A stretch of DNA of 33,999 nt. Source: a virus. Position 1 is the first letter of the stretch. Every line of letters starts with the position of its first letter. The stretch lies in IMG/VR virus record IMGVR_UViG_3300034012_001166, positions 1-33,999 of that record, one strand, 5' to 3'. The position numbers and the translations under genes were made by a program. A model generated the notes under the pieces. The model saw nothing but the letters and a program-made list of their open reading frames with translations. It did not search any database and was not told the DNA's origin. Of the stretch, positions 2,225-17,873 are shown in pieces.

Positions 2225-3676
2225 TTATTTTTTGTAATTGTCATATATATACTGGCCTATCATTAATAAAGCAGCGGCTGCTAAACCTCCAAGGACAGCA
2301 GCTGTCATATGAGACGGAGAATATCCTAACATTTTCATTTCTGGGGTTATAATATCTCCAAGACTAGCTATATAACGAGCTAAAGCACCTCCTCCAAATA
2401 AACCACCTAAAAATAATGCTCCATAATTACCTTCTTCTTCACCTAATGTTTTTGCTTTTTTAGCAAAAGCTAAAGCTATTTTATAAACATCTTGAGGATT
2501 AACATCAATATCTCCTTCATTTAAAGAAATATTAAATTTAGCTAATATTTTATTTAATTCTTCTGTTGCTTTTGGGTCAGCAGCTATCTTATCAGCTATA
2601 GCTTTTAATTTAGGATTTGATTTTAATTGATCTATATTATTAGCAATATCTTTTGCTATTTTTTCTGGTGTTGGTGCTTCTTGTTGGTCTTCAGATTCTC
2701 CAATTAGTTCATCATCTGGAGATATTCCTAAAATTTTTCTGGATATACCATGGATTATTAATGATGCTACTAAACTAATAACTGGGCCTACGAATGCTCC
2801 GAAACTCCATGGACTCATATCTATTAAATAGTTAATAACAAATCCAAATGGAAGACCACCTAATGCTAATAGGTTTAGACCAGTTAAATTTTTAACTAAT
2901 CTTACAACTTCGTATGCTATTTTGTCTACTGTTTCTTCAGCTCCTTCTTTTAAATCTTCAGGAGTTTTAGCATCTTTATCTAGGTTGATAGCATCTACTT
3001 TAGTCATTATATCTTCTAAAGAAGGAGCACCTTTAGCTTCAGCTAAATTAAATTTAGCTTTAAAGTTTTCTTTGTCTTTTTCAGACATTTTAGTCACAAC
3101 AGAATTAATAAGTTTATCAAAAGCAGGTAAACTTGCTATCTTATCTTTAACTTTATTTAAAGCTCCAGATAATGATATTTCTTCTAATTGATTCTCAATT
3201 AATCTTTTTTTTTGATTGTATTGAGCTTCAGTAATTACACCTGCTAATTTTTGCATTTTAAGGAATGATTCATTTATTGCTTCTTCTTCCTCCATTGTGT
3301 AATCCATTTCAGGAACTATAGCATTATCCATACTATCCATTGCACTTCCTTCTTCAACTTCAGCTTCTTCAACTGGTTCGTCAGTTACTACTTCTTTACC
3401 TTTGTTTTTCTTAGCTTTAACCTTTTCTAATTTTTCTTTAGATTTTTCAAGAGTTTTTAAATGTTTTTTAAGTTCATTTAATTTAGTAGGATCTACTAAT
3501 TCTTGCATTTCTTCAAGGCTTTCAGCCATTTCAATTTTTTTGTTTACTTTATCAATAGCTTCAGTGTAAGCATTTAATTTAGCTTCCATTGCTGCGTTTT
3601 CTGCAACATCTTCAATCTCTTTAAGATTGTTGCTAATTGATTCTCTTATGATTGAACGTAGTCTGTTAATTTCCAT
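2225..3676 (-). CDS. Tagged coiled-coil membrane-active phage protein (483 aa), unknown function
   Basis: Regions in order: an amphipathic leader MEINRLRSIIRESI (1-14), a charged coiled coil (about 25-95), an acidic Glu-rich linker (95-135), and an internal motif FLKMQKLAGVITEAQY (138-153). A helical region follows, then two hydrophobic blocks at about 269-312 and 415-478. The second block is rich in Gly/Ala (LGGLAAAALLMIGQYIYD) and is a clear transmembrane segment near the C-terminus. No enzyme motif is visible. The internal motif is nearly identical to the N-terminus of the next gene upstream (3712-4314), so the two proteins share a module. VITE-A (cut after residue 150) resembles a prohead-protease site. 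Membrane segments on a possible virion-packaged protein suggest a role in DNA entry, but that is inference. Confidence 0.65.
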   Translation of the reverse strand: MEINRLRSIIRESISNNLKEIEDVAENAAMEAKLNAYTEAIDKVNKKIEMAESLEEMQELVDPTKLNELKKHLKTLEKSKEKLEKVKAKKNKGKEVVTDEPVEEAEVEEGSAMDSMDNAIVPEMDYTMEEEEAINESFLKMQKLAGVITEAQYNQKKRLIENQLEEISLSGALNKVKDKIASLPAFDKLINSVVTKMSEKDKENFKAKFNLAEAKGAPSLEDIMTKVDAINLDKDAKTPEDLKEGAEETVDKIAYEVVRLVKNLTGLNLLALGGLPFGFVINYLIDMSPWSFGAFVGPVISLVASLIIHGISRKILGISPDDELIGESEDQQEAPTPEKIAKDIANNIDQLKSNPKLKAIADKIAADPKATEELNKILAKFNISLNEGDIDVNPQDVYKIALAFAKKAKTLGEEEGNYGALFLGGLFGGGALARYIASLGDIITPEMKMLGYSPSHMTAAVLGGLAAAALLMIGQYIYDNYKK

Positions 3677-3690
3677 TTTGTTTTATTTTA

Positions 3691-3700
3691 TTATAAATAT
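3691..3700 (-). promoter_or_regulatory. Intergenic ATATTTATAA element
   Basis: The coding strand reads ATATTTATAATAAAA. It lies 11 bases after the stop codon of the 200-residue protein gene and 14 bases before the ATG at 3676. It contains a TATAAT-like hexamer and is one of nine related sites in short gaps. A promoter is the likeliest reading, but this is unproven. Confidence 0.45.
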
Positions 3701-3711
3701 GTGTGTTTTTA

Positions 3712-4314
3712 TCAAATTTGTCCTTTAACTTTAGATGCTATTTGAGCTATTTCTATCGCTTTAACCCCACCTAAAGCACTTTCAATAGCTGTTAAGATAG
3801 GATGAGAACTACTTAATACAGTTTTTAAAGCGTTACCAGCTGCTATACTTAGAATTACACCATATAATATTTTAGCTAGTGATACTAATTTTTGTTCATC
3901 TATTTTATTATCAGGTAACATCCATAATTGTTTACCAAATTTAGTAAATTTAATAGCAGCTATTATAGCTTTTATATAAAATTTTTCCCATTTATGGCCA
4001 AATTTAATAATATTTTTGGCTACAGTATTTTCATCTTTACCAACAAATGGTCTAGTTATAATACTTATACCTTTTCCTAACCATTCTATTAATTTTGGAG
4101 CGGCTAATAATCCACTAATTACTAAACCTACAACTGATTCTTCAAGAGGTTGTTCTTCAATTTCATCTAAAGAACTTAAATCTTGTAAAGCGTTAACTCC
4201 TGATGATAATGCTTGATCTATTTCTTGCTCTTCAGATTCTACTATTAGAGTAGCATATTGGCTTTCAGTTATTAAACCAGCCGTTTTTTGCATTTTTAAA
4301 AATTCTTTGTTCAT
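3712..4314 (-). CDS. Tagged hydrophobic phage protein (200 aa), unknown function
   Basis: The chain starts MNKEFLKMQKTAGLITESQY (residues 1-20), closely matching residues 138-153 of the 483-residue protein encoded next. It continues into an acidic segment (about 25-60) and then a hydrophobic, basic half. That half has likely membrane-associated helices at about 62-75 (VGLVISGLLAAP), around 110-120, and at 145-160 (ILYGVILSIAAG). No catalytic motif is recognisable. LITE-S after residue 17 could be a protease site like those in neighbouring proteins. The next gene upstream ends one base away, so the two are probably translated together. An internal virion protein that inserts into the host membrane is one possibility; a simple scaffold or membrane-anchor role is another. 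Confidence 0.6.
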   Translation of the reverse strand: MNKEFLKMQKTAGLITESQYATLIVESEEQEIDQALSSGVNALQDLSSLDEIEEQPLEESVVGLVISGLLAAPKLIEWLGKGISIITRPFVGKDENTVAKNIIKFGHKWEKFYIKAIIAAIKFTKFGKQLWMLPDNKIDEQKLVSLAKILYGVILSIAAGNALKTVLSSSHPILTAIESALGGVKAIEIAQIASKVKGQI

Positions 4315-4315
4315 T

Positions 4316-7300
4316 TTATACAGTTTTTTTCTCTACAGATTTATTTAATTTGAAATTTCTAACACCTTTAATTGCTCTAATGTCAGTAAATAATTGTTGT
4401 AAATCTTCATCTTTAAATCCATTAGGATATGGATGTGGATCTACTTTCATTTTAATTATTGTATAGTAGTTAGGATTGCTAAATGCAGATGATTCACCTG
4501 ATAAGTCATAATCTTTACTTGATACAATTGTTATACCAGGTAATGAGCGTATATCAGATAATATATCTTTTTGTGGACGATCTTCAGTGTTAGTTAATAA
4601 TAATCCTTCAATATTGTATTGAGTAGATTCTTCTTTAATTATCTTTAAAGTTAACTTACCATTACCTTTAATAACACGATGCCATTCACCTTTAGGTATT
4701 GTAATAGGTTGATTCATAGAAATTGGTAGTTGATTTTCTAATTGTATTTTCCAATCAGTTTTACCTACAATTTCTACTATTCGGTTTTCATTATCACGAT
4801 GCCATTTTAATTCAATAGGATCAATATTCTCATCAAACTCACGAATAATATGTTCATTAGTTACTTCTAAATCTTTATAAGGTTTAGTTTTAACTTTAGA
4901 TTTAATTTCCTCTAGTTCTTCTGGTGTTGCTGCTCCCATTGCTATTCGTAATATGTCTTCTGTTTCACGTAAGTTACGAGCTGTTAAAGCATCTATAAAG
5001 TTACCTACTCTACCCATATTAAACGCGCTAGTAGCGGTTATAATAAAGTGTCTTGCCTCAGGTTGGAATGATGCTTGTCCTATCATAGTACCACTAGCTA
5101 AACGAATGATATACATTCTACTTTGACCAGCAGATATAATTCTAGTAACTCGTCCTCTGTCTCCTAATGCTCTATTACGACCTGCTACTCCATTGTCATT
5201 AGCTACTAATGTACCTGATAATATTCTACTTCTAAGTGGAGCTGGTAAGGCAGTAAATCCTTGTTCTAAACCTGCTCCAACAATTGCTTGTCGTACAGCA
5301 TCATTTACTTGGCCAGTAGTTGTAGGTGGTGTAGCCGCTGCTGCGGTTGCTGTTCTAGGTGTTCTAGTACCTCTAACTGCTCCCGCAGGTGGTCTTGTTC
5401 CTAGTATTATAGCTACTTTAGCTGGGGTAAGATTAGCTCTAAGTAAATTACCTGTTTGTGGACTAAGTTTTCTACTCTCAGATGGATTATTTTGATTTAT
5501 AATATACCATGTTCCTTCATATTGAGCAGGTTTGTATGTGTTATCAGCTGTTAAAGGAGGATTAGCTGCTAAGAATTTTGCTCCAGCGTAATATTGAGAA
5601 CTAGCTAAAGGAAGGAGTTGAGTAGAATCATAAGCTAAATTTTGAGATCTTAAATAATTAAAATATTCAGACCATATTTCTTGATTTGCCATTTTTCCAC
5701 TACCAAATCTTCCATCTTCTCTATAATTAAATGCTACAGAACTTCTATCTAAAGGATTATTTGTATTCCATAAATTAAGTTCATTCCCTGTACTACTAGG
5801 TATTATTATGAAATTATCATCTCCTTTTCTTACTATTCTTTTTTCTGATGGAGTTTGTTTCACTATTGAGGATATAGTTGACATAGGTATTGATGAAGGG
5901 ATGCTATCAAATTTTGAAATCATCCTTATAATACCATCTTGAATACCACTACCTACTGTGTCTGATTTTAATATACTTTGAACAGAGTCATCTTCAAATG
6001 GTACTGGTGTATATTCTCCATTTTCAGGTTTATATGCTTTAAAAGTATTTGTATCTAACACTATCTCGCCTTCATCAGTATTAGCTGTTACGATAGCTGA
6101 TTTAGAGTCTTCTTCTTTTGATTTTTCAATTACTTTATCAACAGTGTCTTTAGGTAAAAGATTATCTTTTGTTAACTTTAATAAAGCATCAAAAGGCATC
6201 TCATCAAATCTAGGTAAACTTTTTAATATACTACTTGTACGAGTGTTTATTTTAACATTAGGATATGTATCTTTCTCAGTAAATAAACCCATTGATACAT
6301 CATCACCATTAAATTTTAATTTAATTATAGCCTTATCATCATTAGAAACATAGTATCTTTCACTATTAGGAACATCAAGTAATCCACCATTAACTACTGC
6401 TTTTTTAGCTGAAAAAGGAATACCACGTGATTTTAAAGTTTCTGTAGATACTTTTGTAAATCTTCGAGCGTTAGCTATGATTGATTTTTGATTTTGGTTA
6501 GAGAAAGAATCAAATTCTTGTAATAAAGTATTTAAATCTATCATCCCATAGTTTTTAGCTACTACTGTAGCCATATCTTGATTGTCTGGGAGAATAGTTT
6601 TTACAAACTTTTCATTAGATATATCAGAAAAAAGTGTTTTTCCTTTTCTAATAATAAGATATCGTTCTTTAAAATCTGGTGGTGCTACTTCCCATTCTTC
6701 AACAGTCATAGCTTGATTAGCATATTGACGAGTTGATAGCTCAACTTTACTAACAGGAATGTATCTAAATATTCTTTCTAAACCTTGAACTGATGGGAAA
6801 TTTTGTTCAACAAATGACCATGGTTCCCATCTGTTCCATTCTGTTCCTCTACCACCAACATCATTGTTTGATCTATCTGATACTTTGTAAGTATTATCAC
6901 TACCTACTACAACAACAAAGAAACTTTTTCTATCACTATTTGGTAAGTTAGTATCTTTTACTAAATAAAATGTTGGATTTTTTCTATTTGAATCATAGCG
7001 ATAATTACCAAATGATCCTTTAGTGATACACCATTGCTCACCTCTACCAAACTTTAAACAGTTTTCTTCATTATGACCACTATAAATTATAAGACCATTT
7101 TCATTATAAACAACGTCTGGTATATTTGATACATCTTCATCATCATCTTCTTTACTTGAACCTTTATAAGCTGATACAAGTTTAATTAATGATTTTAATG
7201 GGTACTTAGCTAAATCTTTTTCAGTTACTTTAGGATTATTTTTTAATCGAGTATCAAAATAGTCAATATAGTCACTTAAATTTGTATCTGAGATTGTAAT

Positions 7301-7429
7301 GTTAAAATCATCTGCTTCTTGCTTAAATTTATCCATTAACTGTTGCTTAACTCTTGGAGCTAATGCCTCAGATAAATTGTTTGACCAATTGTTAACTAAA
7401 TGTTCTATTAATTTATGAATATTACTCAT
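4316..7429 (-). CDS. 1037-residue multidomain phage protein with WCIT motif, cupin-like and C-terminal alpha/beta domains
   Basis: The leader MSNIHKLIEHLVNNW ends in NLSE-A (E21-A22), a prohead-protease-like site. At about 120-137 lies an EENCLKFGRGEQWCIT segment, a Cys/Trp motif I recognise from large phage virion proteins of unknown function. An Ala/Pro/Thr-rich linker (about 683-712) is followed by a basic helical region (about 723-766). A cupin-like beta domain comes next (about 870-930), with WHRDNENR and IPKGEWHRVIKG carrying His residues in the expected places. A C-terminal alpha/beta domain (about 950-1030) resembles small ferredoxin-like folds. It is the largest protein of the tagged group and is probably packaged or structural. 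No enzyme activity can be assigned. The ATATTTATAA element lies just upstream of the ATG. Confidence 0.65.
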   Translation of the reverse strand: MSNIHKLIEHLVNNWSNNLSEALAPRVKQQLMDKFKQEADDFNITISDTNLSDYIDYFDTRLKNNPKVTEKDLAKYPLKSLIKLVSAYKGSSKEDDDEDVSNIPDVVYNENGLIIYSGHNEENCLKFGRGEQWCITKGSFGNYRYDSNRKNPTFYLVKDTNLPNSDRKSFFVVVVGSDNTYKVSDRSNNDVGGRGTEWNRWEPWSFVEQNFPSVQGLERIFRYIPVSKVELSTRQYANQAMTVEEWEVAPPDFKERYLIIRKGKTLFSDISNEKFVKTILPDNQDMATVVAKNYGMIDLNTLLQEFDSFSNQNQKSIIANARRFTKVSTETLKSRGIPFSAKKAVVNGGLLDVPNSERYYVSNDDKAIIKLKFNGDDVSMGLFTEKDTYPNVKINTRTSSILKSLPRFDEMPFDALLKLTKDNLLPKDTVDKVIEKSKEEDSKSAIVTANTDEGEIVLDTNTFKAYKPENGEYTPVPFEDDSVQSILKSDTVGSGIQDGIIRMISKFDSIPSSIPMSTISSIVKQTPSEKRIVRKGDDNFIIIPSSTGNELNLWNTNNPLDRSSVAFNYREDGRFGSGKMANQEIWSEYFNYLRSQNLAYDSTQLLPLASSQYYAGAKFLAANPPLTADNTYKPAQYEGTWYIINQNNPSESRKLSPQTGNLLRANLTPAKVAIILGTRPPAGAVRGTRTPRTATAAAATPPTTTGQVNDAVRQAIVGAGLEQGFTALPAPLRSRILSGTLVANDNGVAGRNRALGDRGRVTRIISAGQSRMYIIRLASGTMIGQASFQPEARHFIITATSAFNMGRVGNFIDALTARNLRETEDILRIAMGAATPEELEEIKSKVKTKPYKDLEVTNEHIIREFDENIDPIELKWHRDNENRIVEIVGKTDWKIQLENQLPISMNQPITIPKGEWHRVIKGNGKLTLKIIKEESTQYNIEGLLLTNTEDRPQKDILSDIRSLPGITIVSSKDYDLSGESSAFSNPNYYTIIKMKVDPHPYPNGFKDEDLQQLFTDIRAIKGVRNFKLNKSVEKKTV

Positions 7430-7440
7430 TACAAAATTTA

Positions 7441-7450
7441 TTATAAATAT
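7441..7450 (-). promoter_or_regulatory. Intergenic ATATTTATAA element
   Basis: The coding strand reads CATATTTATAATAAA, three bases after the stop codon of the 207-residue protein gene and 11 bases before the ATG at 7429. It is almost identical to the sites at 3691, 13309 and 23234. Confidence 0.45.
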
Positions 7451-7453
7451 GGG

Positions 7454-8077: not shown

Positions 8078-8078
8078 A

Positions 8079-8438
8079 TTATTTTTTTATAGATTTAGTT
8101 TTCTTTTTAGATGCTTCTTTTTTAGTTGTGATGTATTCTAAAGCATTTTTTAAACGTTTTTTTACTTCAGGATCTTTAGCTCTACCATAAGCCGCTCTAA
8201 CACGTTGGTGAATTAAATTAATAATTTGGGATTTACGAGCGTGTGGTTTTGACTTAAATGATGTTTTAGATAAAGTATCTTTAATATCTTGAACAGTTTT
8301 AAATTTAATACGTACTGTGTCCGTTGGATCTTCATCTGTGTATAAACGACGACCTGAACCTTTAGGTTTTTTACCAGTACCTACTTTAGGATCACCTTCT
8401 AATAGGATTTTATTTAGTATATCTACTAATTTAATCAT
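8079..8438 (-). CDS. Tagged, very basic phage protein (119 aa), possible DNA-binding internal protein
   Basis: The leader MIKLVDILNKILLEG has L-L-E-G at residues 12-15, an almost ideal T4-type prohead-protease site. The remainder is strongly basic: KPKGSGRRLYTDEDPTDTV, then a helical region (about 60-100), then a Lys tail (KKKTKSIKK). The KPKGSGRRLYTDE segment is one I know from many uncharacterised large-phage proteins. If cleaved after E14, the mature product would be a small polycation suited to neutralising packaged DNA, like the T4 internal proteins. The ATG overlaps the stop codon region of the upstream gene by four bases (8435-8438). The packaging role is inferred from the tag and the charge. 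Confidence 0.65.
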   Translation of the reverse strand: MIKLVDILNKILLEGDPKVGTGKKPKGSGRRLYTDEDPTDTVRIKFKTVQDIKDTLSKTSFKSKPHARKSQIINLIHQRVRAAYGRAKDPEVKKRLKNALEYITTKKEASKKKTKSIKK

Positions 8439-8893
8439 TTTGTTTTACCCCAAGTTTTACCTTTGCCTTTCTTTTTACATCCAGCTGGTGTAGGACGACA
8501 TGATGGGTATTTAGCCCGTTTTTCGCCTTCTTTTCTACCACAAGATTTATATCCACCTTTTCCATCAGGTGCATTACAATCTACCCATCCACCTTCTTTA
8601 CCTTTAGCACCTCTACGTTTAAACCATTTATAAAGTGATTCGTCTTCATTTAATATTTTTTGAATTACTTCTTTTAATCTAGCATATCCTGATCCATAAG
8701 GAGCTGCTTTACCAGATTGTGGATCATCTGTTTCTTTTAAGTCTTTCCAAATTTTACCTTTACGACATCTAACAATAGCACCTGACTTATAAGCAGATGG
8801 TTTATCATAGCGACGATCAGCAATACGTTTGCAGCGATCTGCTTTTTTCTTTTCTTCTAAAAGAATTTGTTCTATTAATTGTGTAATATTCAT
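8435..8893 (-). CDS. Two-module basic Cys-containing phage protein with two leader-like segments (152 aa)
   Basis: The leader MNITQLIEQILLEE (1-14) precedes a basic module (about 15-68) with DRCKRIADRRYDKPSAYKSG and Cys 21 and 43. A second leader-like stretch, RLKEVIQKILNED (72-84), precedes a second module. That module contains WVDCNAPDGKGGYKSCGR (103-120) and a KYPSCRPTPAGCKKKG tail, with Cys 106, 118, 132 and 139 as possible zinc ligands. The second module resembles the Cys-containing domain named DUF6321 in phage annotations, and the first resembles DUF5872-type segments; I cannot confirm either without a profile search. The tag-module-tag-module layout suggests maturation into two peptides. 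It is highly basic overall and probably binds DNA. Confidence 0.65.
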   Translation of the reverse strand: MNITQLIEQILLEEKKKADRCKRIADRRYDKPSAYKSGAIVRCRKGKIWKDLKETDDPQSGKAAPYGSGYARLKEVIQKILNEDESLYKWFKRRGAKGKEGGWVDCNAPDGKGGYKSCGRKEGEKRAKYPSCRPTPAGCKKKGKGKTWGKTK

Positions 8894-8894
8894 A

Positions 8895-9539
8895 TCACCA
8901 GAATCCTGAAAATGTTGTTTTAAATCCTAATAACTTTGCGTAACGAGGAAGACGACATGACCAGTAACTAGCTTTTGTTCTATCTTTCTTTTGTGGGCAG
9001 TTATGACGTTTAGAAAATGCTGAGCGTGCCTTAGAGTTATTTAATTTAGCACGTAGTCCACCACCTGCCATACCAAATGATACTTTTTTAATACGTTTGG
9101 TTTTAGGATCTTTAACATAAACATAGAATTTTTTAGAACCACCACGTTTTGGTTTACCTAACGCTGGTTGTTTCTTTTCTTCTTCTAATTCTACTTCTGT
9201 TAATATTTCTAATTCCATCATTGGTAAGTCTAAAGGTACTATTTCACCTTCAAACATCCCAAAACGACCTAAATCTGTATTTTCAAATAATTTTTTATCT
9301 TCAGCTTGAAGTTCAATAATACCTTGTTTCCATAGTATACGAGCTTCATGAATTAACTCTATATGTGATTTAGAACCAGGACGAAATATATTTTCATGGA
9401 TTTGGATTTTATTAGAGATATGGTATCTCATTTCCTCAGATATAGGAGAATTATATTGTTTAGATTCATTTAATGTTGGAGCAACATTAGGTTGTTCTAG
9501 TAAAGCTGATTTTATTGCTTCTATTATTAGTTGTTTCAT
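8895..9539 (-). CDS. Tagged two-domain conserved phage protein (214 aa)
   Basis: The leader MKQLIIEAIKSALLEQ (1-16) precedes an acidic alpha-helical domain (about 32-110). That domain has NIFRPGSKSHIELIHEAR and GRFGMFEGEIVPLDLPM, a conserved phage domain of unknown function. A Glu-rich linker follows, then a strongly basic C-terminal domain (about 125-205) with KFYVYVKDPKTKRIKKVSFG, then SKRHNCPQKKDRTKASYWSC and RLPRYA. The second domain is one I recognise as widespread in cyanophages and other T4-like phages, without an assigned function. Candidate cleavage positions are E15 and E25 (TLNE-S). The fusion of an acidic and a basic phage domain behind one leader fits the modular cargo pattern of the neighbours. 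Its four-base overlap (9536-9539) with the upstream gene implies translational coupling. Confidence 0.65.
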   Translation of the reverse strand: MKQLIIEAIKSALLEQPNVAPTLNESKQYNSPISEEMRYHISNKIQIHENIFRPGSKSHIELIHEARILWKQGIIELQAEDKKLFENTDLGRFGMFEGEIVPLDLPMMELEILTEVELEEEKKQPALGKPKRGGSKKFYVYVKDPKTKRIKKVSFGMAGGGLRAKLNNSKARSAFSKRHNCPQKKDRTKASYWSCRLPRYAKLLGFKTTFSGFW

Positions 9540-10735
9540 GTTGTTCTTATTTTTAAACTTAGTGGTAATATTCCTTTACCTTGAGTATCTCGTATTTCAA
9601 TAAGATAATTTACTGGGCCTAATACTGGGCTGTCTGCTATTAGTTTTACTGTTAATGTTTTTGTCTCTTTATTAGGATACTTAACACTAACATTTTTTAT
9701 ATCACCAACAAATTTATAGACATCATCTTCTGTTCTATTATCATAAACAAATAATCCTTTATCTTTTTCACGAACATACCAGTATCCATAATCATATCCT
9801 GATGCTATGAATTTTTTAAGATCTTCAGAATTAGTTACACTTATATTTTCATATGTGTTAGACATATCACCTTGTTTAGTAGCATATTCATTTAATCCTT
9901 GGGCTACCTTTTCAGGATCAATATTAAGTGTTTCAAATAATTGAGCTATAACAGGTTTAATATTAAATTTACTAGGATCATAAACTACTTTACCATCTTC
10001 AAAGACAATAAATGGAATGATTCCTCCATTATAAAATCCACTACCTGCTATATTTTTAATAGATAGATAAGTGTCAGGTAAAATTGTTATATCTGATATT
10101 GTTTCTCCTTTATTTTCAGGACCATTAAAATCAATAGGACGTTTAGTACCTTTATTTCCAGTTTGTATTACTTGTTCTGGGGTGATATCTTCAGGATCAA
10201 TGCCTATTTTATTGTATAATTCTCTTAAATCAGGGTCAGTTATATCTTCTAATGAAGTACCAGCTGATGATTTAATTTTATCATAGAAGTTGCTTTCATA
10301 TTTTTCACCTAAATTAGCCCCACCAGATAATATTATTTTAACAGGACCTTCAGAAGTAGTGAATAAATACATATTATATTTAGAACTTGGATTTTCTCCT
10401 TCTTTAGGTTTAAGTATAGTTACTTGAGGATTATTAAAAGTATTTTTAATAATTTCTAAGAATTGATCTGGAGATATTTTGTCCATATTTCCTAAACGAG
10501 ACCAATCTGTTTGAGGTTTAAAATTATATTTTTTACCTAATTCTGAATTAAGAATAGTTTGAATTGCTTTAACTGTATTTTGTTTCATACTACCTTCATT
10601 TAAACTTACACTTTGCCCTAATACTTCACTTATTAAAGATTCAAGTAATGAAATATCAGTAGGGTTACTCATATCTGGGTAACCCTTAGGGAATTTGTAA
10701 GAAACGCTATGTAGGAATTTATCAAATATATTCAT
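9536..10735 (-). CDS. Tagged phage protein with possible PD-(D/E)xK-like nuclease core (399 aa)
   Basis: The first 21 residues are followed by MSNPTDISLLESLISEVLGQ and SLNE-G (E47-G48), a leader-like helix and an (I/L)xE-G site. The ATG at 10735 is kept as the start because ATATTTATCA sits directly before it; Met22 is the alternative. At about 141-155 there is GEKYESNFYDKIK. At about 208-225 ISDITI and LSIKN appear, spaced as in PD-(D/E)xK nucleases that use a Ser-x-Lys variant with an upstream helix Glu. This is a weak pattern match, not a secure family. The C-terminal third is beta-rich with aspartate-rich turns. No membrane segment is seen. It belongs to the tagged group; a packaged nuclease would be plausible but is speculative. 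Confidence 0.6.
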   Translation of the reverse strand: MNIFDKFLHSVSYKFPKGYPDMSNPTDISLLESLISEVLGQSVSLNEGSMKQNTVKAIQTILNSELGKKYNFKPQTDWSRLGNMDKISPDQFLEIIKNTFNNPQVTILKPKEGENPSSKYNMYLFTTSEGPVKIILSGGANLGEKYESNFYDKIKSSAGTSLEDITDPDLRELYNKIGIDPEDITPEQVIQTGNKGTKRPIDFNGPENKGETISDITILPDTYLSIKNIAGSGFYNGGIIPFIVFEDGKVVYDPSKFNIKPVIAQLFETLNIDPEKVAQGLNEYATKQGDMSNTYENISVTNSEDLKKFIASGYDYGYWYVREKDKGLFVYDNRTEDDVYKFVGDIKNVSVKYPNKETKTLTVKLIADSPVLGPVNYLIEIRDTQGKGILPLSLKIRTT

Positions 10736-10737
10736 AT

Positions 10738-11200: not shown

Positions 11201-11450
11201 TTTTTATTTGGATATATTGGATTTCTGTTTTAACATTTAATTGAGCACTATCATAATCTTGTTTTAGTTTAATATATGATTTATTCAATGAATCTACAAT
11301 ATGACTTAAACTATCTATACGATTATCAACTGGAGGTGTTACTGGTCTTGGGTCTGGTTTAAGACTTTTTATAATTAATAATGACACTAATAATATTACT
11401 AATACCCAAGGTAATACAGGATGATTAAGGAACTTATTTAATTTTTTCAT
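11124..11450 (-). CDS. Small single-pass membrane protein, possible i-spanin (Rz-like)
   Basis: A 108-residue protein with one N-terminal transmembrane segment, LPWVLVILLVSLLIIKSL (13-30), preceded by a short positively charged stretch (MKKLNK). This predicts N-in topology with the rest in the periplasm. A Pro-rich hinge (PDPRPVTPPVDN) precedes a heptad-like coiled coil (about 43-75). This is the layout of inner-membrane spanin subunits. Its 3' end overlaps the lipoprotein gene by 77 bases in a different frame, the arrangement typical of Rz/Rz1 pairs. No holin or endolysin is recognisable nearby, so the lysis assignment rests on topology and overlap. It could instead be a different periplasmic anchor. 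Confidence 0.6.
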   Translation of the reverse strand: MKKLNKFLNHPVLPWVLVILLVSLLIIKSLKPDPRPVTPPVDNRIDSLSHIVDSLNKSYIKLKQDYDSAQLNVKTEIQYIQIKNAKDISNIHNFTIDQRDSMWSTLNP

Positions 11451-11452
11451 TA

Positions 11453-12010: not shown

Positions 12011-12011
12011 T

Positions 12012-12680
12012 TTATTTATCTAAAGTGTATTCTGTTCTTTCGTCTATTTCTGGCTTGTTAGCTGCTTGAAATCCTAAATATTGGCTAACTGATGCTATAT
12101 AGTCAGCTGCTTTAGTGATCTTACTTTGTACCCATGCTTCTAATTGAGTATCGTCATCTAACATTTGCATTAACTCTTGAGAGTTTTTAACTAAGCGATA
12201 TAATTCAGATTTAGCCATTTCTCCTTCATAATCAACTTCTTCTTTAAGATCTACCCCACGTCCTTTTAATATATCAGCTTTAGTTACTTTACCATCACCT
12301 GTTAAGTCAGGAAATTCTTTACTTTTTTTCTCACTTACTGGAGGTGTAGATAATGCTTTTTTAATTACTTCTTTTAATTTAGTATCACTCATAGTCTGTA
12401 CTTGTTTTTTAGCTGTGTTGATTGCGCGACCCCACAATATATTTTCTGCGCTATTACCATGTTTAGCAACAGCATTCATTATTGCTTTATCATCAGCTTT
12501 CATAGCTGAGTATACATCTTTTGCTCTGTCTAAGACTGCGTCTGATAATCCCTCATTAATAGGTTCAGAAGCATATAGAGCTCTCATATAAGCCTTAGCT
12601 TTTTTAACAGATGAAGAACATCCTTTCTTCTTACCTGTCTCTTTATTATAAACACATTTGCCTTTTAATTTGTATGGCAT
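12012..12680 (-). CDS. Modular phage protein with dockerin-like calcium loop (222 aa)
   Basis: Four parts are visible. A basic Cys-containing N-terminal module (MPYKLKGKCVYNKETGKKKG) ends in PINE-G (E43-G44), a prohead-protease-like site. A helical module (about 44-95) is followed by a leader-like helix, TKLKEVIKKAL (about 98-110). DLTGDGKVTKADIL (about 123-136) is a single EF-hand or dockerin-type calcium-binding loop with the expected Asp and Gly positions. The C-terminal domain (about 150-205, from YEGEMAKSELYRLV to WVQSKITKAADYIASV) recurs in many T4-like phage proteins of unknown function. The gene sits just after a hairpin terminator, so it probably has its own start point or depends on read-through. 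It belongs with the modular, possibly processed cargo proteins. Confidence 0.65.
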   Translation of the reverse strand: MPYKLKGKCVYNKETGKKKGCSSSVKKAKAYMRALYASEPINEGLSDAVLDRAKDVYSAMKADDKAIMNAVAKHGNSAENILWGRAINTAKKQVQTMSDTKLKEVIKKALSTPPVSEKKSKEFPDLTGDGKVTKADILKGRGVDLKEEVDYEGEMAKSELYRLVKNSQELMQMLDDDTQLEAWVQSKITKAADYIASVSQYLGFQAANKPEIDERTEYTLDK

Positions 12681-12700
12681 ATCTATTTATTTTAAAGTTA

Positions 12701-12719
12701 AGGGGAGCATTGCTCCCCT
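12701..12719 (-). terminator. Hairpin terminator between the histone-like gene and the 222-residue protein gene
   Basis: A perfect 8-pair stem (AGGGGAGC with GCTCCCCT) closes a three-base loop, GC-rich in otherwise AT-rich DNA. The T run on the coding strand is interrupted (TAACTTTAAAAT), so termination may be partial. It lies 21 bases after the stop codon of the histone-like gene. Confidence 0.65.
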
Positions 12720-12739
12720 ATAACTCAAATTTACAATTC

Positions 12740-12913
12740 TTATTTCGCTTTGTCTTCAGCAGTAGAAGCTTTACGGTATTCCGCAATTACCTTCTTAATC
12801 TCACCTGCTGTTTTGCGAGCACGTCCATGTGCTGCTTTTGCTGGTTTTGAGTGTTCTGCTACTAATAACTCGAATAACTCTTGCATTCTTTCTAATAACT
12901 CTTGACTGTTCAT
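12740..12913 (-). CDS. Small histone H1-like (Hc1-type) protein, 57 aa
   Basis: ATG at 12911-12913 opens a 57-codon frame ending at TAA 12740-12742. The first part (MNSQELLERMQELFELLVAE) is an amphipathic helix. It is followed by SKPAKAAHGRARKTAGEIKK and an A-E-Y-R-K tail. The Ala/Lys/Arg-rich AAxGxRARKTAxEIKKVI segment matches the pattern of the small histone H1/Hc1-like proteins common in Bacteroidota and in Chlamydia. Such proteins bind and compact DNA. It is followed by a terminator, and the upstream gap (12914-12936) has no Shine-Dalgarno sequence. It could coat packaged phage DNA or act on the host nucleoid; the sequence does not decide. It also supports a Bacteroidota host. The family call is from pattern recognition. 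Confidence 0.7.
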   Translation of the reverse strand: MNSQELLERMQELFELLVAEHSKPAKAAHGRARKTAGEIKKVIAEYRKASTAEDKAK

Positions 12914-12936
12914 AGATTTTATTTGTTTGGTTTATA

Positions 12937-13299
12937 TTATGCTTGATCTTTAGTGATTTGTGTTTTCAAAAAGAATAAAGCGGTGTTTCCAATTTGACGT
13001 ACTAATTTATCTTTATTTTCTCCGTCTGGTAGTTGCTTAGCAGCGTCTAATGCTGTTTGTAAGCCTTGGCCAACTTGTTTTTCAATTGAATCACCACCCA
13101 TATCTGCTCCCATATTCATGTCTATATTTGGGTCAGTAGATAAGTCATCTATAGGTGCTTCTTCAGCGGGTGCTACTTCAGCGTCAACATCAACATCAAC
13201 ATCTAGAGGAGGTAATTCGTCTTTTTTCTTTTTCTTTTCAAATAAAGCAACTTCCTCTTTGATGATTTGTTGTATTAATGATTTTAATTTAGTACTCAT
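12937..13299 (-). CDS. Tagged small acidic phage protein (120 aa)
   Basis: The leader MSTKLKSLIQQIIKEEVALF (1-20) is a clear amphipathic helix of the tag type, followed by a Lys run (KKKKK). An acidic disordered segment rich in Asp-Val and Ala-Glu repeats follows (about 30-65). The Asp-Val run comes from an imperfect six-base tandem repeat (TCAACA units on the plus strand, 13184-13203). The C-terminal half (about 72-118) is a helical module ending LVRQIGNTALFFLKTQI. No known domain is recognised. The helical end resembles short conserved modules in other T4-like phage internal proteins. It lies directly upstream of the histone-like gene in the same transcript, so a role in head filling is possible but unproven. 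Confidence 0.55.
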   Translation of the reverse strand: MSTKLKSLIQQIIKEEVALFEKKKKKDELPPLDVDVDVDAEVAPAEEAPIDDLSTDPNIDMNMGADMGGDSIEKQVGQGLQTALDAAKQLPDGENKDKLVRQIGNTALFFLKTQITKDQA

Positions 13300-13308
13300 T
13301 GTATTTTA

Positions 13309-13318
13309 TTATAAATAT
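13309..13318 (-). promoter_or_regulatory. Intergenic ATATTTATAA element
   Basis: The coding strand reads ACATATTTATAATAAAA, beginning one base after the stop codon of the 69-residue protein gene and ending nine bases before the ATG at 13299. It is one of the best matches to the shared core. Confidence 0.45.
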
Positions 13319-13319
13319 G

Positions 13320-13529
13320 TTATTTTTTAATGGTTTTGCACTCATAACATTTCTTTTTAGATAATGCTTCTTTAGCGATGCCTTTAATCTTATCTTGAAG
13401 ATTTTGAGGGAGTTTAGCTATTTCAGCTTCTTTTTCTTTATCTTCAGCATTCCATTTATCTAAAAGATCTTTAAACATGCCTTGTGTTCCAGCATATTTG
13501 TCTTCAGTTAATTTATATTTAAAAGCCAT
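13320..13529 (-). CDS. Small hypothetical phage protein with C-terminal Cys pair (69 aa)
   Basis: A charged, mainly helical 69-residue protein starting MAFKYKLTEDKYAG. It has a Glu/Lys-rich middle and a KKKCYECKTIKK end whose CxxC could form half of a zinc site. The start codon overlaps the stop codon of the upstream DUF5856-like gene by one base (TAATG), so it is almost certainly translated by coupling. No family is recognised. The protein is too short for a confident fold. Confidence 0.5.
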   Translation of the reverse strand: MAFKYKLTEDKYAGTQGMFKDLLDKWNAEDKEKEAEIAKLPQNLQDKIKGIAKEALSKKKCYECKTIKK

Positions 13530-13891
13530 TATCGTAAGTTTTGTAATTTGTAGATAGTTGATTTAATTAAATCTGTAATTCCATCTAGTAAATTTTGTAT
13601 GTTAGTGTCCTCAGTTGATTGGTATACTTCATAAACTGCTTTACATAATGCGTCTAAGTACGCTACTACTTGTTGAGTATTATTATACTCCATTAGATTA
13701 AAATTAGAGTAACCTTTTACAATACCGTATTTACCTTGGTATGCTTCTACAATACCATCAATTAATGGTACAATTCCATCATAGTAAACATTTAAAGCCA
13801 TATGCTCAGCATATGACTGTGTTTGTAAATGGAATATGTGAGCTTGGGTACGAGAATGGAATAAATATGATATTAGTTTTACAAAATCCAT
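13529..13891 (-). CDS. DUF5856-like, possibly ferritin-like four-helix protein (120 aa)
   Basis: The N-terminal half contains SRTQAHIFHLQTQSYAEHMA (about 13-32) and then YYDGIVPLIDGIVEAYQGKY (36-55). This is the conserved core I associate with the phage family DUF5856. His18, His21 and His30 plus Asp44 and Glu49 fall in a pattern resembling the Dps/ferritin helix pair, where a His-rich first helix and a D-x-x-x-x-E second helix bind iron. Metal binding is inferred. The rest (about 72-115) is helical with no signal peptide. If it is a Dps-like cage, it could protect DNA or scavenge iron in the infected cell. It may also be a purely structural phage protein. The family resemblance is fairly strong; the metal role is tentative. 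Confidence 0.6.
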   Translation of the reverse strand: MDFVKLISYLFHSRTQAHIFHLQTQSYAEHMALNVYYDGIVPLIDGIVEAYQGKYGIVKGYSNFNLMEYNNTQQVVAYLDALCKAVYEVYQSTEDTNIQNLLDGITDLIKSTIYKLQNLR

Positions 13892-13903
13892 GTTTAATTT
13901 TAT

Positions 13904-13913
13904 ATATAAATAT
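13904..13913 (-). promoter_or_regulatory. Intergenic ATATTTATAT element
   Basis: The coding strand reads GATATTTATATATAAAA, three bases after the stop of the zinc-ribbon gene and 12 bases before the ATG at 13891. It matches the shared core in nine of ten bases. Confidence 0.4.
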
Positions 13914-13916
13914 CGG

Positions 13917-14486
13917 CTATTTTTTCAAGCTCTCAAGATACTTAATGGTTTCTTCTTTACTTTCAAGAAGTTTTTGTTTAGCATTACCAGACCAACGTTC
14001 CATATCACCTGCTTCAGTTATAAATGACTCATTTTTAGTATTCATTTCTTCATCAACCCAAATATTAAATTCATTTATAAGTCCATCAATATCTGAGTTG
14101 ATTATGAGTTTTTCGTACTCTACCCATAAGCCTTTCTTTTTAAGATCAGTTTCAAATTCAATTTGACAATTAAAACATCTTTTATACTGTATAAAAAACT
14201 GCTTATCATACCTATGTTTCATCATTCCATTACAACATGGGCAAAATAATGGTAAGTGAAGAGACTCTTTAGCTTTGTCTAATTTAGTGATATTTTGTTT
14301 AATACCATTTTTAATAGTCCAAGTACGATCATCTTCTTCCCATACATCTCCTTCTTCATGATGTTCATATTGTTTAGTATAACCAGTACCTACAGTAGCT
14401 TTTTCACCATATTTACCTTGCATAAGGTTACGAAGACGTTGTACATCTTTCTCCTTAAATTCTTTTTTCAAAACATTTTCAGCCAT
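13917..14486 (-). CDS. Zinc-ribbon phage protein (189 aa)
   Basis: The N-terminal segment has KDVQRLRNLMQGKYGEKAT (about 14-32) and EEDDRTWTIKNGIKQNITKL (about 50-69). A zinc ribbon follows at about 82-106, with CPCC and CFNC as the two half-sites. The C-terminal third is helical, with NESFITEAGDMERWSG near residues 149-165. This layout is shared by uncharacterised proteins of many T4-like phages. The ribbon probably binds zinc and may contact nucleic acid or protein. ITE-A near residues 156-159 resembles a prohead-protease site, but here it lies near the C-terminus. There is no Leu/Glu leader at the start. It is followed by the ATATTTATAT element. Confidence 0.6.
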   Translation of the reverse strand: MAENVLKKEFKEKDVQRLRNLMQGKYGEKATVGTGYTKQYEHHEEGDVWEEDDRTWTIKNGIKQNITKLDKAKESLHLPLFCPCCNGMMKHRYDKQFFIQYKRCFNCQIEFETDLKKKGLWVEYEKLIINSDIDGLINEFNIWVDEEMNTKNESFITEAGDMERWSGNAKQKLLESKEETIKYLESLKK

Positions 14487-14490
14487 AATA

Positions 14491-14946
14491 TTACTTTGAT
14501 GGAACCTTTTCTATATTACATTTTATTTTAGCACTATCTAAAATTACTTTTAAATCATTTTCCATTTGAACTAAAGTAAGTGTATTTTTAGATTGAGGGA
14601 ATCTTAAAGACTCACCTTCAACTTCAAAGTTAAATTTATTAGGATTTGCTAACTTTTCTTTAAATTTATTTATTTCAGCAGCCGTTTTAGTGGGAAATGC
14701 TTCTCCTCTTTGTTTTTCTAATGATTTTCTTTTGGCTGGATTTTGTGGGCCAAAGTAATCTTCTAAAGCTGATTTAGAAATCTTAGCAAATAGTTTTTCA
14801 TAATTCTTAGGATTCTTAATTGCTTCTTTTACTTTTTCAATAGTTGAACCAATTGGGGTTAACAATAAATCATTTGTTTGTTTATTGATTGAAAATGTTG
14901 CTTCATCTCCCTCATTTTCTAATAGTTTTACTAAACTGTATTTCAT
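14491..14946 (-). CDS. Tagged small phage protein of unknown function (151 aa)
   Basis: The start MKYSLVKLLENEGDE is leader-like and is followed by a soluble, mixed-charge domain without recognisable motifs. A KxxE-rich helical region spans about 35-85, and a beta-rich end (about 100-150) contains FEVEGESLRFPQSKNTLTLV. The start overlaps the end of the HAD phosphatase gene by four bases (14943-14946), so the two are translationally coupled. Gene order ties it to the kinase, nucleotidyltransferase and phosphatase set, but no function can be given. Conservation in other phages would need a homology search. Confidence 0.5.
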   Translation of the reverse strand: MKYSLVKLLENEGDEATFSINKQTNDLLLTPIGSTIEKVKEAIKNPKNYEKLFAKISKSALEDYFGPQNPAKRKSLEKQRGEAFPTKTAAEINKFKEKLANPNKFNFEVEGESLRFPQSKNTLTLVQMENDLKVILDSAKIKCNIEKVPSK

Positions 14947-15443
14947 AATCCTAGTTCTTTTAATTGTTTAATTGTATCTGCTGTAGATGTATGTAATATT
15001 CCTATTCCACCTTTATCTCTCCATTGTTGTATATTTTTTTCCATATCATCAATAAGTATTTTATTTTCCCCTGAGTATTTTTGTTTGAATCTTGCTGGTG
15101 TTAAAATCATTTTAGCATCAGGTAAGTTATTTTTCTTCCATACTCGTTTACCTATTTTAGATGATTCTTCTTGTGAAGGTGCTGATAGTAATGTTGGATT
15201 AAATGGTTTAATATAATTCCATAATGTTTGTCCATCAGGTAACCATTTTAATTTGATCCAAAATGAAGCTCCCATTTTATGTATTGGTTCCCAAAACTCA
15301 GGACCTTCACCTGCGGCAGACATTGGTTTGCCTGTTGCTTCTTCATAACCTTTTTCAAAATCAACTAATACCCCATCTAAATCACAATAGATAGTATATT
15401 TGTTGTTTTCAACTTCTTCTAATAACTCTTTTAATTTAATCAT
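14943..15443 (-). CDS. Tagged HAD-superfamily phosphatase, 5'(3')-nucleotidase-like (166 aa)
   Basis: After the leader MIKLKELLEEVENN comes a complete HAD core. Motif I is DLDGVLVDF (residues 21-29, nucleophile Asp21 and acid Asp23). Motif II is LLSAPS in the middle of the chain, followed by a Lys-rich motif III region (ARFKQKY), and motif IV is LIDDMEKN. The small cap and about 165-residue length resemble the 5'(3')-deoxyribonucleotidase type of phage phosphatases, which dephosphorylate nucleotides; the substrate is not certain. Its ATG overlaps the upstream nucleotidyltransferase gene by eight bases. The leader lies outside the catalytic fold and matches that of the kinase (MIKLTDLLKEV), although the enzymes are unrelated. 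This is the best evidence that the leader is a separate targeting element. Confidence 0.8.
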   Translation of the reverse strand: MIKLKELLEEVENNKYTIYCDLDGVLVDFEKGYEEATGKPMSAAGEGPEFWEPIHKMGASFWIKLKWLPDGQTLWNYIKPFNPTLLSAPSQEESSKIGKRVWKKNNLPDAKMILTPARFKQKYSGENKILIDDMEKNIQQWRDKGGIGILHTSTADTIKQLKELGL

Positions 15444-17079
15444 TTTTCTTTATTGAATTTTCCCAACCTCTAAATAATAAACCATTACCATACTCATATG
15501 CTTCACGTTCTAATTCTTTTAGATAATCGTCTTCATTTATATTTTGACCTTGTATATCATTTAATTTTCCTTCTAAATTTTGTTTATGATGTACCATTTC
15601 ATGTGCAAAAGAGCGCAATACATCTTTAGGATGACGTTTTAGTGTGTATAACGTGATTGATTTATCATTTGGGTTATAATACGCTGTTTTACCAAAGAAA
15701 TCATCAGCATTCTTAACATCATCTTCAACAAAATTAACATCTGGTAATGGTTCAATATTAATATGATCCATCATGTAACTTGTTAGTGATACTAATTTTT
15801 TTATAAAGTCAGTATTATTTTCTAAACCTTTTTTACTAATATTGGATATTATTATTTTGTCTTTATCTTTGTCAACTTTAAAATCTGATGGTGATAAATT
15901 CTTATAATAATCTTTATAGTAATCTACTCTAGTAGGTTCTGATGATATGTTTAAATCTAATTGTTTGTCTTGGATTGGTTCAAAGAAATTATTTGTTTCT
16001 TTAGGAGTATTATCATGTCCACATTTATGACATATGAATAAATCATCACCACCATCTTTTATCTTCCAAGTCCAACCACAATCATCACAAACTATACTGT
16101 CATCTTGAATCTGTTCAAATGTTAATTTAGTACTTGTAGTTTGAAAATTAGGTTTACGCATTATAGTTTTAGCTACCGCTACTACTTTATCACGTAATTG
16201 ACTTTTTTTAATATCTTTAGTTAATGGGATATTAATATCAGTATCTGAGTCTGTTGCTACTACTTCTCCTTGGTCTAATAAATTAGCTAACTCATCTTTT
16301 TCATCTGATAGTTTATCAAAGAAATCATATAGCTCGTCTGTTTTAATTCCAGGACGATTACGTTTATCATTAACTCTATCAATAAAATGAGGTGGTATGT
16401 CAATATCAATTGGATTTAAAACACTATCAGCATAGTCATCAATATCATCAATCTCAGGTTCAGGTACAACCTCATTAACCCAAGTTGTTATTTCTTCACT
16501 TTCAGACATTGGATTAAGTATACTATATACTTCTTCTCTTTCACTATCTGATAACTCAATTGGTAAGTAGTTAAATAATGATTCTTTATCTGTTAGTACC
16601 TGTCTAGCTTTAGTACCACTAACATCATTAGCAGTGACAATATTAATTGCTTCTAAATTATCACGAGTATCTACCGCTTTAGAGCGTTTATAAAAATCTT
16701 CAAAATCTTGGTTATTACCTTGTCTAGATCCTAAAAACCATTTAATATCCTCAAATGGATGCTCTTTAGCATATCTATAAATTGAAGATACTGGGTTAGG
16801 TGAAGGTATAATTTCAACATTATCTGGTAGATACTTTTTATAGATGTTCCATATAGCTAATGATTGATCTTGAGTAATATCTGATCTTCCTCCTCCTGTT
16901 CCAACAAATATAATAAATTTGTTTGGGTTATATTTTTCTATAGCTTTTTTAACTACTTCAAGATGACCCTTAGTTGGTGGTTGAAACCCACCTCCAAATA
17001 AACCTACAGTTAATCCTTCACCTAAAGAATCAACCTCAGTTAAAAATGGTAATATAAGTGATTTAACTAATGAGCTCAT
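15436..17079 (-). CDS. Nucleotidyltransferase - zinc ribbon - zincin metallopeptidase fusion (547 aa)
   Basis: The leader MSSLVKSLILPFLTEV ends in SLGE-G (E21-G22). A cytidylyltransferase-type domain follows: GLFGGGFQPPTKGHLEVV (26-43) has the PTxGH form of the HxGH nucleotide-binding motif, and VSGTKARQVL (about 153-162) matches the ISSTxxR motif. Such enzymes make adenylyl or cytidylyl derivatives (e.g. NMN or pantetheine phosphate adenylyltransferases); the substrate is unknown. A middle region (about 215-320) carries a conserved phage segment. A C4 zinc ribbon (CDDCGWTWK to CHKCGHD, about 331-355) is followed by a C-terminal zincin with AHEMVHHKQNLEG (HExxH at about residue 492) and EREAYEYG. 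Three catalytic or binding modules behind one leader is an unusual fusion. The start overlaps the upstream kinase gene by four bases. Confidence 0.75.
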   Translation of the reverse strand: MSSLVKSLILPFLTEVDSLGEGLTVGLFGGGFQPPTKGHLEVVKKAIEKYNPNKFIIFVGTGGGRSDITQDQSLAIWNIYKKYLPDNVEIIPSPNPVSSIYRYAKEHPFEDIKWFLGSRQGNNQDFEDFYKRSKAVDTRDNLEAINIVTANDVSGTKARQVLTDKESLFNYLPIELSDSEREEVYSILNPMSESEEITTWVNEVVPEPEIDDIDDYADSVLNPIDIDIPPHFIDRVNDKRNRPGIKTDELYDFFDKLSDEKDELANLLDQGEVVATDSDTDINIPLTKDIKKSQLRDKVVAVAKTIMRKPNFQTTSTKLTFEQIQDDSIVCDDCGWTWKIKDGGDDLFICHKCGHDNTPKETNNFFEPIQDKQLDLNISSEPTRVDYYKDYYKNLSPSDFKVDKDKDKIIISNISKKGLENNTDFIKKLVSLTSYMMDHINIEPLPDVNFVEDDVKNADDFFGKTAYYNPNDKSITLYTLKRHPKDVLRSFAHEMVHHKQNLEGKLNDIQGQNINEDDYLKELEREAYEYGNGLLFRGWENSIKKND

Positions 17080-17873
17080 TTAATAAAATTATTAACAACA
17101 GTAGGTAATTGTTTACTATCTATGGGATTCAATTTAGATTGAATATCCCCGTAAGTATTAGCTATTTTATCAATGTTTTGATAAAGTTGTTGTTTTGTTT
17201 TTTCTCTTGATTTTTCTCGTTTAGCTTTTTCTTCAGGTGATAACTCAGTATCATCTTTTCTGAATGATGAAGTAAATTGACCTGTAGATAATAAACTGTC
17301 AAAATATTCTTTTAGAGTACCGTCTTTATATGCTTTTTCAAAGTTAGCAATTTCTGCTTCTTCTTCTGGGCCTGATGGTGTATTTACTAAAATAAAATTG
17401 TCTCCAAATATATTTTTATATTCATCTAATAAATTATAAACATTAGCCCAAGTACCTAAAACACCAGCAGCTGGTACTTTACGTTCACGCTTATAGTTTC
17501 TTAAAAATGATACTATAGGATGAGCATAAACCATCAACATCATAACATCATATCCACCTTCATTTAACATATCTAATGTTGGTTGAAGTGTAGATAGATT
17601 GGATGCTGTGGTATCGTAAATTAAATTACGTTTAGCTGCTATAGCGTTAGGTAAATCTTGTTTTCTTATTTGAGATGAGGCAGCAGATAAATTACCAAAC
17701 ATTGGTGAGTCTTTATCTTCTACATATTTGTCTGCATTTAAGTTTTCAAATCCTTTTAATTGAGAATCAATTGTTTTTAGGATTGTTGATTTACCTACTG
17801 ATGCTCCTCCAGCCATTATTATGGCTTTTGGTTTATTTTGTACTTCTTTTAGTAAGTCAGTTAGTTTTATCAT
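17076..17873 (-). CDS. Tagged P-loop kinase, zeta-toxin-like (265 aa)
   Basis: The leader MIKLTDLLKEV precedes KAIIMAGGASVGKST, whose GGASVGKST (22-30) is a Walker A motif. NADKYVEDKD and the RNLIYDTTAS strand follow, as in zeta-toxin/AAA_33-type kinases. A lid-like Arg-rich stretch (NYKRERKVP) fits phosphotransfer. The C-terminus is charged and helical. Zeta-type enzymes phosphorylate small metabolites such as UDP-N-acetylglucosamine, but phage relatives may act on nucleotides or RNA; the substrate is not visible. The start is taken at 17873, not the upstream in-frame ATG at 17921. The longer frame would run through the terminator hairpin, and the tag begins exactly at 17873. The stop overlaps the next start (ATGA). 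Confidence 0.75.
   Translation of the reverse strand: MIKLTDLLKEVQNKPKAIIMAGGASVGKSTILKTIDSQLKGFENLNADKYVEDKDSPMFGNLSAASSQIRKQDLPNAIAAKRNLIYDTTASNLSTLQPTLDMLNEGGYDVMMLMVYAHPIVSFLRNYKRERKVPAAGVLGTWANVYNLLDEYKNIFGDNFILVNTPSGPEEEAEIANFEKAYKDGTLKEYFDSLLSTGQFTSSFRKDDTELSPEEKAKREKSREKTKQQLYQNIDKIANTYGDIQSKLNPIDSKQLPTVVNNFIK

Follow-up and report, generated by a model that had tools for sequence, protein, structure and literature searches.

Shared N-terminal leaders on unrelated proteins of T4-like environmental phages as probable capsid-targeting propeptides

Introduction

Why do proteins with unrelated folds, encoded in one piece of phage DNA, open with much the same short peptide? The question is raised by IMGVR_UViG_3300034012_001166, a phage fragment of 33,999 bases without head genes, which is called the window throughout. 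A sequence-only reading of the window had listed a series of such leaders and had claimed that they follow the logic of the capsid-targeting sequence of phage T4. The T4 capsid-targeting peptide is MKTYQEFIAE, and the first ten residues of the internal protein IPIII suffice for packaging, with residues 4 and 7 serving targeting and residues 8 and 10 serving processing (PMC9026906); the protease gp21 cleaves after L/I-x-E. Comparison at the level of sequence indicates that the leaders are very probably propeptides of this T4 type and make up a greatly expanded cargo and processing system, of which no earlier description was found in the literature searched (open-licence papers).

By its baseplate-wedge protein, the window is related to Flavobacterium phage vB_FspM_immuto (47% identity; immuto below) and to Microcystis phage Mel-JY01 (43%). 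A near relative, IMGVR_UViG_3300011115_000874 (160,798 bases; G001 below), bears an equivalent leader block. The immuto genes for terminase, portal, prohead protease, a scaffold-like protein and the major capsid protein (MCP) come directly after its leader-rich block.

Enrichment of the leader motif at protein starts

All N-termini listed by the sequence-only reading were found in the sequence, on the minus strand. A first, stricter leader pattern gave 3 and 1 matches and was too narrow, and a motif with the T4 spacing was substituted, hydrophobic-x-x-hydrophobic-[L/I]-x-E, written [LIVFMYW]xx[LIVFMYWA][LI]xE with the E at residue 9–20. As this motif was defined and refined only after the leaders had been inspected, the controls and the independent genomes matter. 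It was found in 8 of the 34 called window proteins, or in nine when a kinase is started at an internal codon, and these nine are non-homologous; after shuffling, the N-termini had 0.6 matches on average and never more than 4, and internal segments had 0–2. The claim of common leaders on unrelated proteins thus held. Outside the leader the motif is rare in the window proteins: there is a single match, in the leader, in the 547 residues of a nucleotidyltransferase (NTase; residues 9–15), in the 166 residues of a HAD phosphatase, and in each of the proteins of genes 8079–8438 (119 residues) and 12937–13299 (120 residues). The contrast between leader block and tail block in the window alone (8 of 21 versus 1 of 14 genes, Fisher p = 0.056) is only suggestive, and the strength of the case rests on the related genomes.

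Enrichment in related phages, a check suggested with the earlier reading, was found in both genomes: motif-bearing N-termini numbered 26 of 209 in G001 (shuffles 4.2 ± 2.0, maximum 12) and 17 of 209 in immuto (4.0 ± 2.1, maximum 11), with internal segments of their proteins at background level. About four chance matches are expected per large genome, the G001 terminase being an example, and the plain [LI]xE is a weak discriminator (65 versus 33 in G001, 47 versus 31 in immuto). An all-against-all comparison of the N-termini of non-homologous G001 proteins gave 24 strongly similar pairs, compared with one for residues 31–50 and 0–2 after shuffling. The same comparison in immuto also picked up ordinary signal peptides, which serve as a positive control, yet the pair counts include them.

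The likeness of the N-termini might also stem from an advantage in translation of A+T-rich starts with many Lys, Leu and Ile codons, or from the copying of upstream DNA along with the first codons. The G+C content of these genomes, about 32–35%, would suit the former, and for the latter there is a copied 5' segment common to some early genes of G001. However, shuffling the same residues yields far fewer matches, and phi14:2 and phi38:1, two flavobacterial phages of 50 kb that are not T4-like, show no excess, with 1 of 61 and 0 of 69 motif-bearing N-termini. Two copies of MIKLTDLLKE in one genome differ at 7 of 30 nucleotides and use different codons, and the leaders persist across wide divergence of the bodies (the full motif stands in 54 of 55 kinase homologues), which makes either origin very unlikely. 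The copied segment of G001, MLYSGIIKN..M, opens several short early-type genes at 56442–61502 (L172, L173) and may be a repeated region of a promoter or a leader transcript.

Likeness to the T4 capsid-targeting sequence

The commonest leader form, MIKLxxLLKE, superposes on MKTYQEFIAE, with hydrophobic residues at positions 4 and 7, [L/I] at position 8 and E at position 10. These are the determinants of IPIII, and the proposed T4 logic appears well founded in this respect. In longer leaders, the spacing relative to the E is kept and the absolute position is not. Applied to 65–110 kb of T4, the same regular expression picks gp2 and three head proteins that are cleaved in T4, namely IPII, IPIII and gp24.

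A scan of IMG/VR with a degenerate DNA pattern for MIKLxxLLKE gave at least 120 stretches; among the matches listed were 111 usable proteins, in which this leader opens at least 49 unrelated body families. Leucine stands at position 4 in 108 of these 111 and at positions 7 and 8 in 110, although the pattern would have accepted F there too. The pattern itself dictated E10, but this residue is invariant in 12 kinases found independently of the pattern. Across 70 mostly unrelated MIKLxxLLKE proteins, M1, K3, L4 and E10 are each conserved in at least 90%. On viral contigs, 108 of the 122 matches listed start an open frame of at least 60 residues, compared with 9 of 117 matches at an open-frame start on bacterial and archaeal contigs.

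Two further leader families, which the sequence-only reading had missed, were found on genes 3712–4314 and 9536–10735. The second leader, FLxMQKLAG[LIV]ITE, opens 37 body families in IMG/VR; its window representative, MNKEFLKMQKTAGLITE (4264..4314, minus strand), precedes a hydrophobic body, and BLAST matches of this protein to others span only residues 1–24 to 1–29. The third N-terminal module, KFLHSVSYKFPKGYPDMSNPTDISLLESLISE (10628..10735, minus strand), ends in the motif LESLISE and is joined to differing bodies in homologues, several of which align only over residues 1–38 to 1–67. FLKMQKLAG-ITE is also found internally and near C-termini. Thus FLKMQKLAGVITE (3227..3265, minus strand), which occurs N-terminally on other IMG/VR proteins, forms residues 138–150 of the protein of gene 2225–3676, and it lies about 25 residues or less from the C-terminus of proteins in L313, L327, L370, L378 and others, so that the second-family module is not strictly N-terminal.

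Bacterial microcompartments load enzymes via short amphipathic N-terminal helices. On this precedent, the leaders could be interaction helices with a non-capsid role, such as oligomerisation, membrane binding or microcompartment- or encapsulin-like loading of another compartment. A weak SHOCT-like score in one second-family protein, that of gene 2225–3676, points the same way (15.5 bits against a Pfam cut-off of 27, E 0.015); with no SHOCT match at E up to 1 in ten other second-family proteins, SHOCT was rejected as the identity of this leader. Such a role is quite improbable, as the conserved acidic end is exactly the L/I-x-E site of gp21, the spacing is that of the T4 capsid-targeting sequence, and the site is common to the scaffold and not in excess in the non-T4 controls.

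Leaders as appendages of complete folds

The leaders are appendages, and the bodies are complete folds without them. This is concluded from NTase homologues that lack the leader (L125, L134), from the low predicted confidence at the leaders and from the 49 and 37 unrelated body families, and the possibility, raised with the original claim, that the leaders are integral parts of each fold was not borne out.

The kinase leader MIKLTDLLKE (17844..17873, minus strand) opens a Zeta_toxin/PNK-like P-loop kinase (gene 17076–17873), whose start was placed at the internal ATG at 17873 because several homologues begin exactly there; L4 and E10 are invariant in 12 aligned homologues. The protein matches Pfam Zeta_toxin at 9.6e-13, and a fold search gave zeta toxins and polynucleotide kinases with modest TM-scores. 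The HAD leader MIKLKELLEE (15414..15443, minus strand) stands on a HAD/5'-deoxyribonucleotidase-like phosphatase (gene 14943–15443), which matches PHROG 2643 at 5.6e-25 and, again with modest TM-scores, deoxyribonucleotidase-like HAD folds. Its homologue in immuto bears another leader, MKKVMGNLADLLLE. AlphaFold models of both proteins have an overall pLDDT of 87–92, with low confidence mainly at the leader: in the kinase, the first ten residues have a pLDDT of 54 and the first strand begins at residue 15, and in the HAD protein the leader has 65 against 92.4 overall, with the first strand at residue 17. The NTase leader MSSLVKSLILPFLTE (17035..17079, minus strand) belongs to gene 15436–17079, which encodes a cytidylyltransferase-like protein (CTP_transf_like 3.4e-5, above the cut-off) with a C-terminal HEMVH metallopeptidase-like region. 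A PDB sequence search with the HAD, kinase and NTase proteins gave no match.

Where a body lies inside a longer protein, an LxE was found within about 20 residues of the body start in 26 of 28 cases, compared with 23% of random windows, and the full motif near the start in 10 of 28, compared with 3%, with p-values that overstate the case because the junctions are not independent (about half come from one domain family) and the body starts were mapped approximately.

Prohead protease, scaffold and late promoter

A prohead protease, which the capsid-targeting claim presupposed, is encoded in relatives of the window, itself a fragment. An S77 protease (PF03420) was found in G001 and G003, a prohead protease is annotated in immuto, and S77 was present in 11 of 18 further leader-bearing long contigs, including five of five of at least 140 kb. 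The G001 scaffold candidate, whose gene lies between those for the protease and the capsid protein, opens with MNREMLKEAIAE/A (the slash marks the presumed cut), comparable to MLKEQLIAE/A of T4 gp22, and contains 5.4 LxE per 100 residues, against 5.9 in gp22 and a proteome median of 1.3. The T4 MCP site FLTE/A aligns, by sequence only, with LVVE/A and IVSE/A.

A scaffold that opens with the same site is also what one would see if the leaders marked components of the prohead core destined for fragmentation and expulsion at maturation, as assembly factors and not as injected cargo. The T4 core proteins gp22 and gp67 are cut into multiple fragments, and the internal and C-terminal copies of FLKMQKLAG-ITE could be read likewise. 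However, many bodies are enzymes or folded domains without a further full-motif site, as in the HAD and NTase proteins, and should therefore survive maturation. The body families also differ from phage to phage, unlike assembly factors, and we consider a pure assembly role improbable.

Leader genes and virion genes (tail sheath, tail tube, baseplate) are preceded by the same late-type promoter element, ATATTTATA, found in the window at 13310..13318 (minus strand), with other copies on the same strand starting at 3700, 7450, 13913, 23243, 31182 and 33807. All seven window copies lie 13–27 nucleotides upstream of a start codon, at leader and tail genes alike, and copies on the coding strand outnumber those on the other strand by 42:3 in G001 and 16:1 in immuto. 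The element looks like the late promoter of this clade, unlike TATAAATA of T4, late-type being a label by association only. The T4 late promoter TATAAATA as such was considered and discarded, being rarely upstream of genes here.

A proposed cargo system and its precedents

From the motif, the protease gene, the scaffold site and the promoters, we infer a course of packaging, cleavage and ejection. The leader proteins would be made late, their leaders would dock on the prohead core, the S77 protease would cut after the E, and the core would be degraded and removed. Enzymes and basic proteins, now leaderless, would stay behind inside the head and reach the next host together with the DNA. Where proteins are fused, LxE at domain junctions may allow several proteins to be cut from a single packaged chain. 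Retention of the bodies in the head and their injection is likely, and, as leaders of the T4 loading type stand on dozens of proteins, these phages probably inject a large, ready-made protein cargo with their DNA. A wider proposal, which we rate somewhat better than even, is a clade-wide modular cargo code in environmental T4-like phages. At least three interchangeable docking peptides, each ending in a prohead-protease site, would bring dozens of unrelated enzymes into the head (kinases, nucleotidyltransferases, HAD phosphatases, ADP-ribosyltransferases and hydrolases), and inter-domain LxE would make polyproteins that the prohead protease separates.

The leader bodies of the window comprise the kinase, the HAD phosphatase, the cytidylyltransferase-like protein with its metallopeptidase-like region, and small basic proteins. 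This agrees with the enzymes and basic proteins of the sequence-only reading, whose membrane-active proteins were not substantiated. In relatives, an ADP-ribosyltransferase (ART-PolyVal, PF18760, 2.1e-10) directly follows MIKLIDLLKE at L199:4514-4897, on an S77-encoding contig of 173 kb; a weak match to an alpha/beta hydrolase was also obtained. Most bodies matched no known family.

As with the T4 capsid-targeting sequence of IPI, IPII and IPIII (Mullaney and Black 1996; PMC9026906), an N-terminal propeptide of about ten residues stands here on several unrelated bodies, and a protease of the S77/gp21 type is common to T4 and the leader-bearing phages. T4 has three IP proteins plus Alt, whereas here each genome has roughly 10–20 motif-bearing proteins above background, the bodies of the clade as a whole make up dozens of families, the leaders fall into at least three, and fusion proteins have LxE at their domain junctions. 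T4 Alt, a packaged and gp21-processed ADP-ribosyltransferase, is resembled by the L199 protein in its MIKL leader and ADP-ribosyltransferase domain in an S77 phage, but the L199 protein is small, at 128 residues, and its domain belongs to the ART-PolyVal family.

In the Dar system of phage P1 (PMC9024508), an N-terminal signal likewise sends injected protein to the head, and for a reporter the first 30 residues of DarB are enough; the Dar N-termini have no common consensus by BLAST, whereas the leaders here have an explicit one. For the ejection proteins of the giant phages SPN3US and phiKZ (PMC5694885, PMC10052503), the excerpts available describe a large head-protein mass and some N-terminal propeptides cut by the prohead protease; they report 42 SPN3US head proteins as uncleaved and describe no short common leader. 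Polyvalent proteins, according to the excerpted text of Iyer et al. (2017; PMC5512222), are multidomain, carry enzyme domains near late genes and are predicted to be packaged and injected. That text describes no common N-terminal packaging leader, whereas separate leader-bearing proteins and LxE junctions in fusions are found here. Polyvalent Pfam domains were absent from the window proteins; one relative has ART-PolyVal, and multidomain fusions occur in relatives.

Besides the kinship among the junctions, several observations weigh against the capsid-targeting interpretation. HTVC008M, a T4-like pelagiphage with related NTase, HAD and kinase, had been expected to be positive but was not enriched (5 motif N-termini versus 3.1), and Mel-JY01 was marginal (8 versus 4.2, p about 0.05), so that the expansion is not general among T4-like phages. 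Only 16 of 48 HAD homologues have the full motif, and 27 have a plain [LIV]xE. The MCP sites of the group have V instead of L/I at position −2, and the residue after the presumed cut is variable here, compared with mostly A in the T4 examples. No virion mass spectrometry or proteomics for the clade, and no paper on the immuto virion, was found in the literature. Most of the N-termini first given as examples fit, and two were not clean. The uncertain N-terminus MSNIHKLIEHLVNNWSNNLSE (7367..7429, minus strand; late-type promoter at 7450) of gene 4316–7429, given as MSNIHKLIEHLV, is without the full motif and has just a plain LSE/A at residue 21. The N-terminal helix MKIDGLKKLIKE (33758..33793, minus strand) of gene 33428–33793 has the motif three times, but the whole helix of about 33 residues (MKIDGLKKLIKEAVREAIQEELKDILLEAVKSP) is conserved in 73 loci upstream of baseplate genes (e.g. 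L005:9146-9508), with a variable remainder. Cargo leaders are divergent, unlike this helix, which is probably not one of them.

Most phage-injected proteins are unknown, because proteomics has revealed them virion by virion. Should the leader prove to be a capsid-targeting signal, genome sequence alone could disclose what many uncultured phages inject and would nominate new enzymes of counter-defence and host takeover, and laboratories would have a compact peptide with which to load proteins into phage heads. The internal-protein set of T4 would then be a modest example of a far more extensive cargo system.

Further leaders and neighbouring genes of the window

The remaining window leaders all lie on the minus strand. 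Gene 12937–13299 opens with MSTKLKSLIQQIIKE (13255..13299) behind a late-type promoter at 13318; the motif is present in 11 of 11 homologues, and the leader lies inside a fusion protein in L085, L095 and L099. The basic protein of gene 8895–9539 has the motif in its leader MKQLIIEAIKSALLE (9495..9539), which is kept in 10 of 18 homologues, seven having no LxE ahead of the body. The DUF5872-like basic protein of gene 8435–8893 (E 1e-4, below the cut-off) begins with MNITQLIEQILLE (8855..8893), and in immuto and G001, whose leaders differ, the homology body 'KKADRC.RIA' directly follows the leader. Its only other motif match is an internal second site, YARLKEVIQKILNE (8645..8686), ahead of the C-terminal domain. 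The small basic protein of gene 8079–8438 carries MIKLVDILNKILLE (8397..8438), and its body, from residue 16, recurs in L110 and L112 as a domain within larger proteins. Gene 2225–3676, with C-terminal hydrophobic stretches and a late-type promoter at 3700, has the motif in MEINRLRSIIRE (3641..3676). A possible leader, MKYSLVKLLE (14917..14946), opens gene 14491–14946 with a plain LxE only; its homologues keep [LIV]xE in 10 of 10 cases and have the full motif in 0 of 10.

In the 1037-residue protein of gene 4316–7429, the C-terminal domain (residues about 850–932) corresponds to a separate protein of about 85 residues in many relatives (e.g. L094:20126-20389). Adjoining the leader block, positions 823–2103 encode a leaderless FAD-dependent oxidoreductase-like protein, with a Rossmann match from residue 3. 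In Mel-JY01 (60276–61105; L536), a leader-bearing gene has apparently been duplicated in tandem, as two adjacent genes open near-identically with MIKLKSLL[QK]EIISDRVWHLTT.

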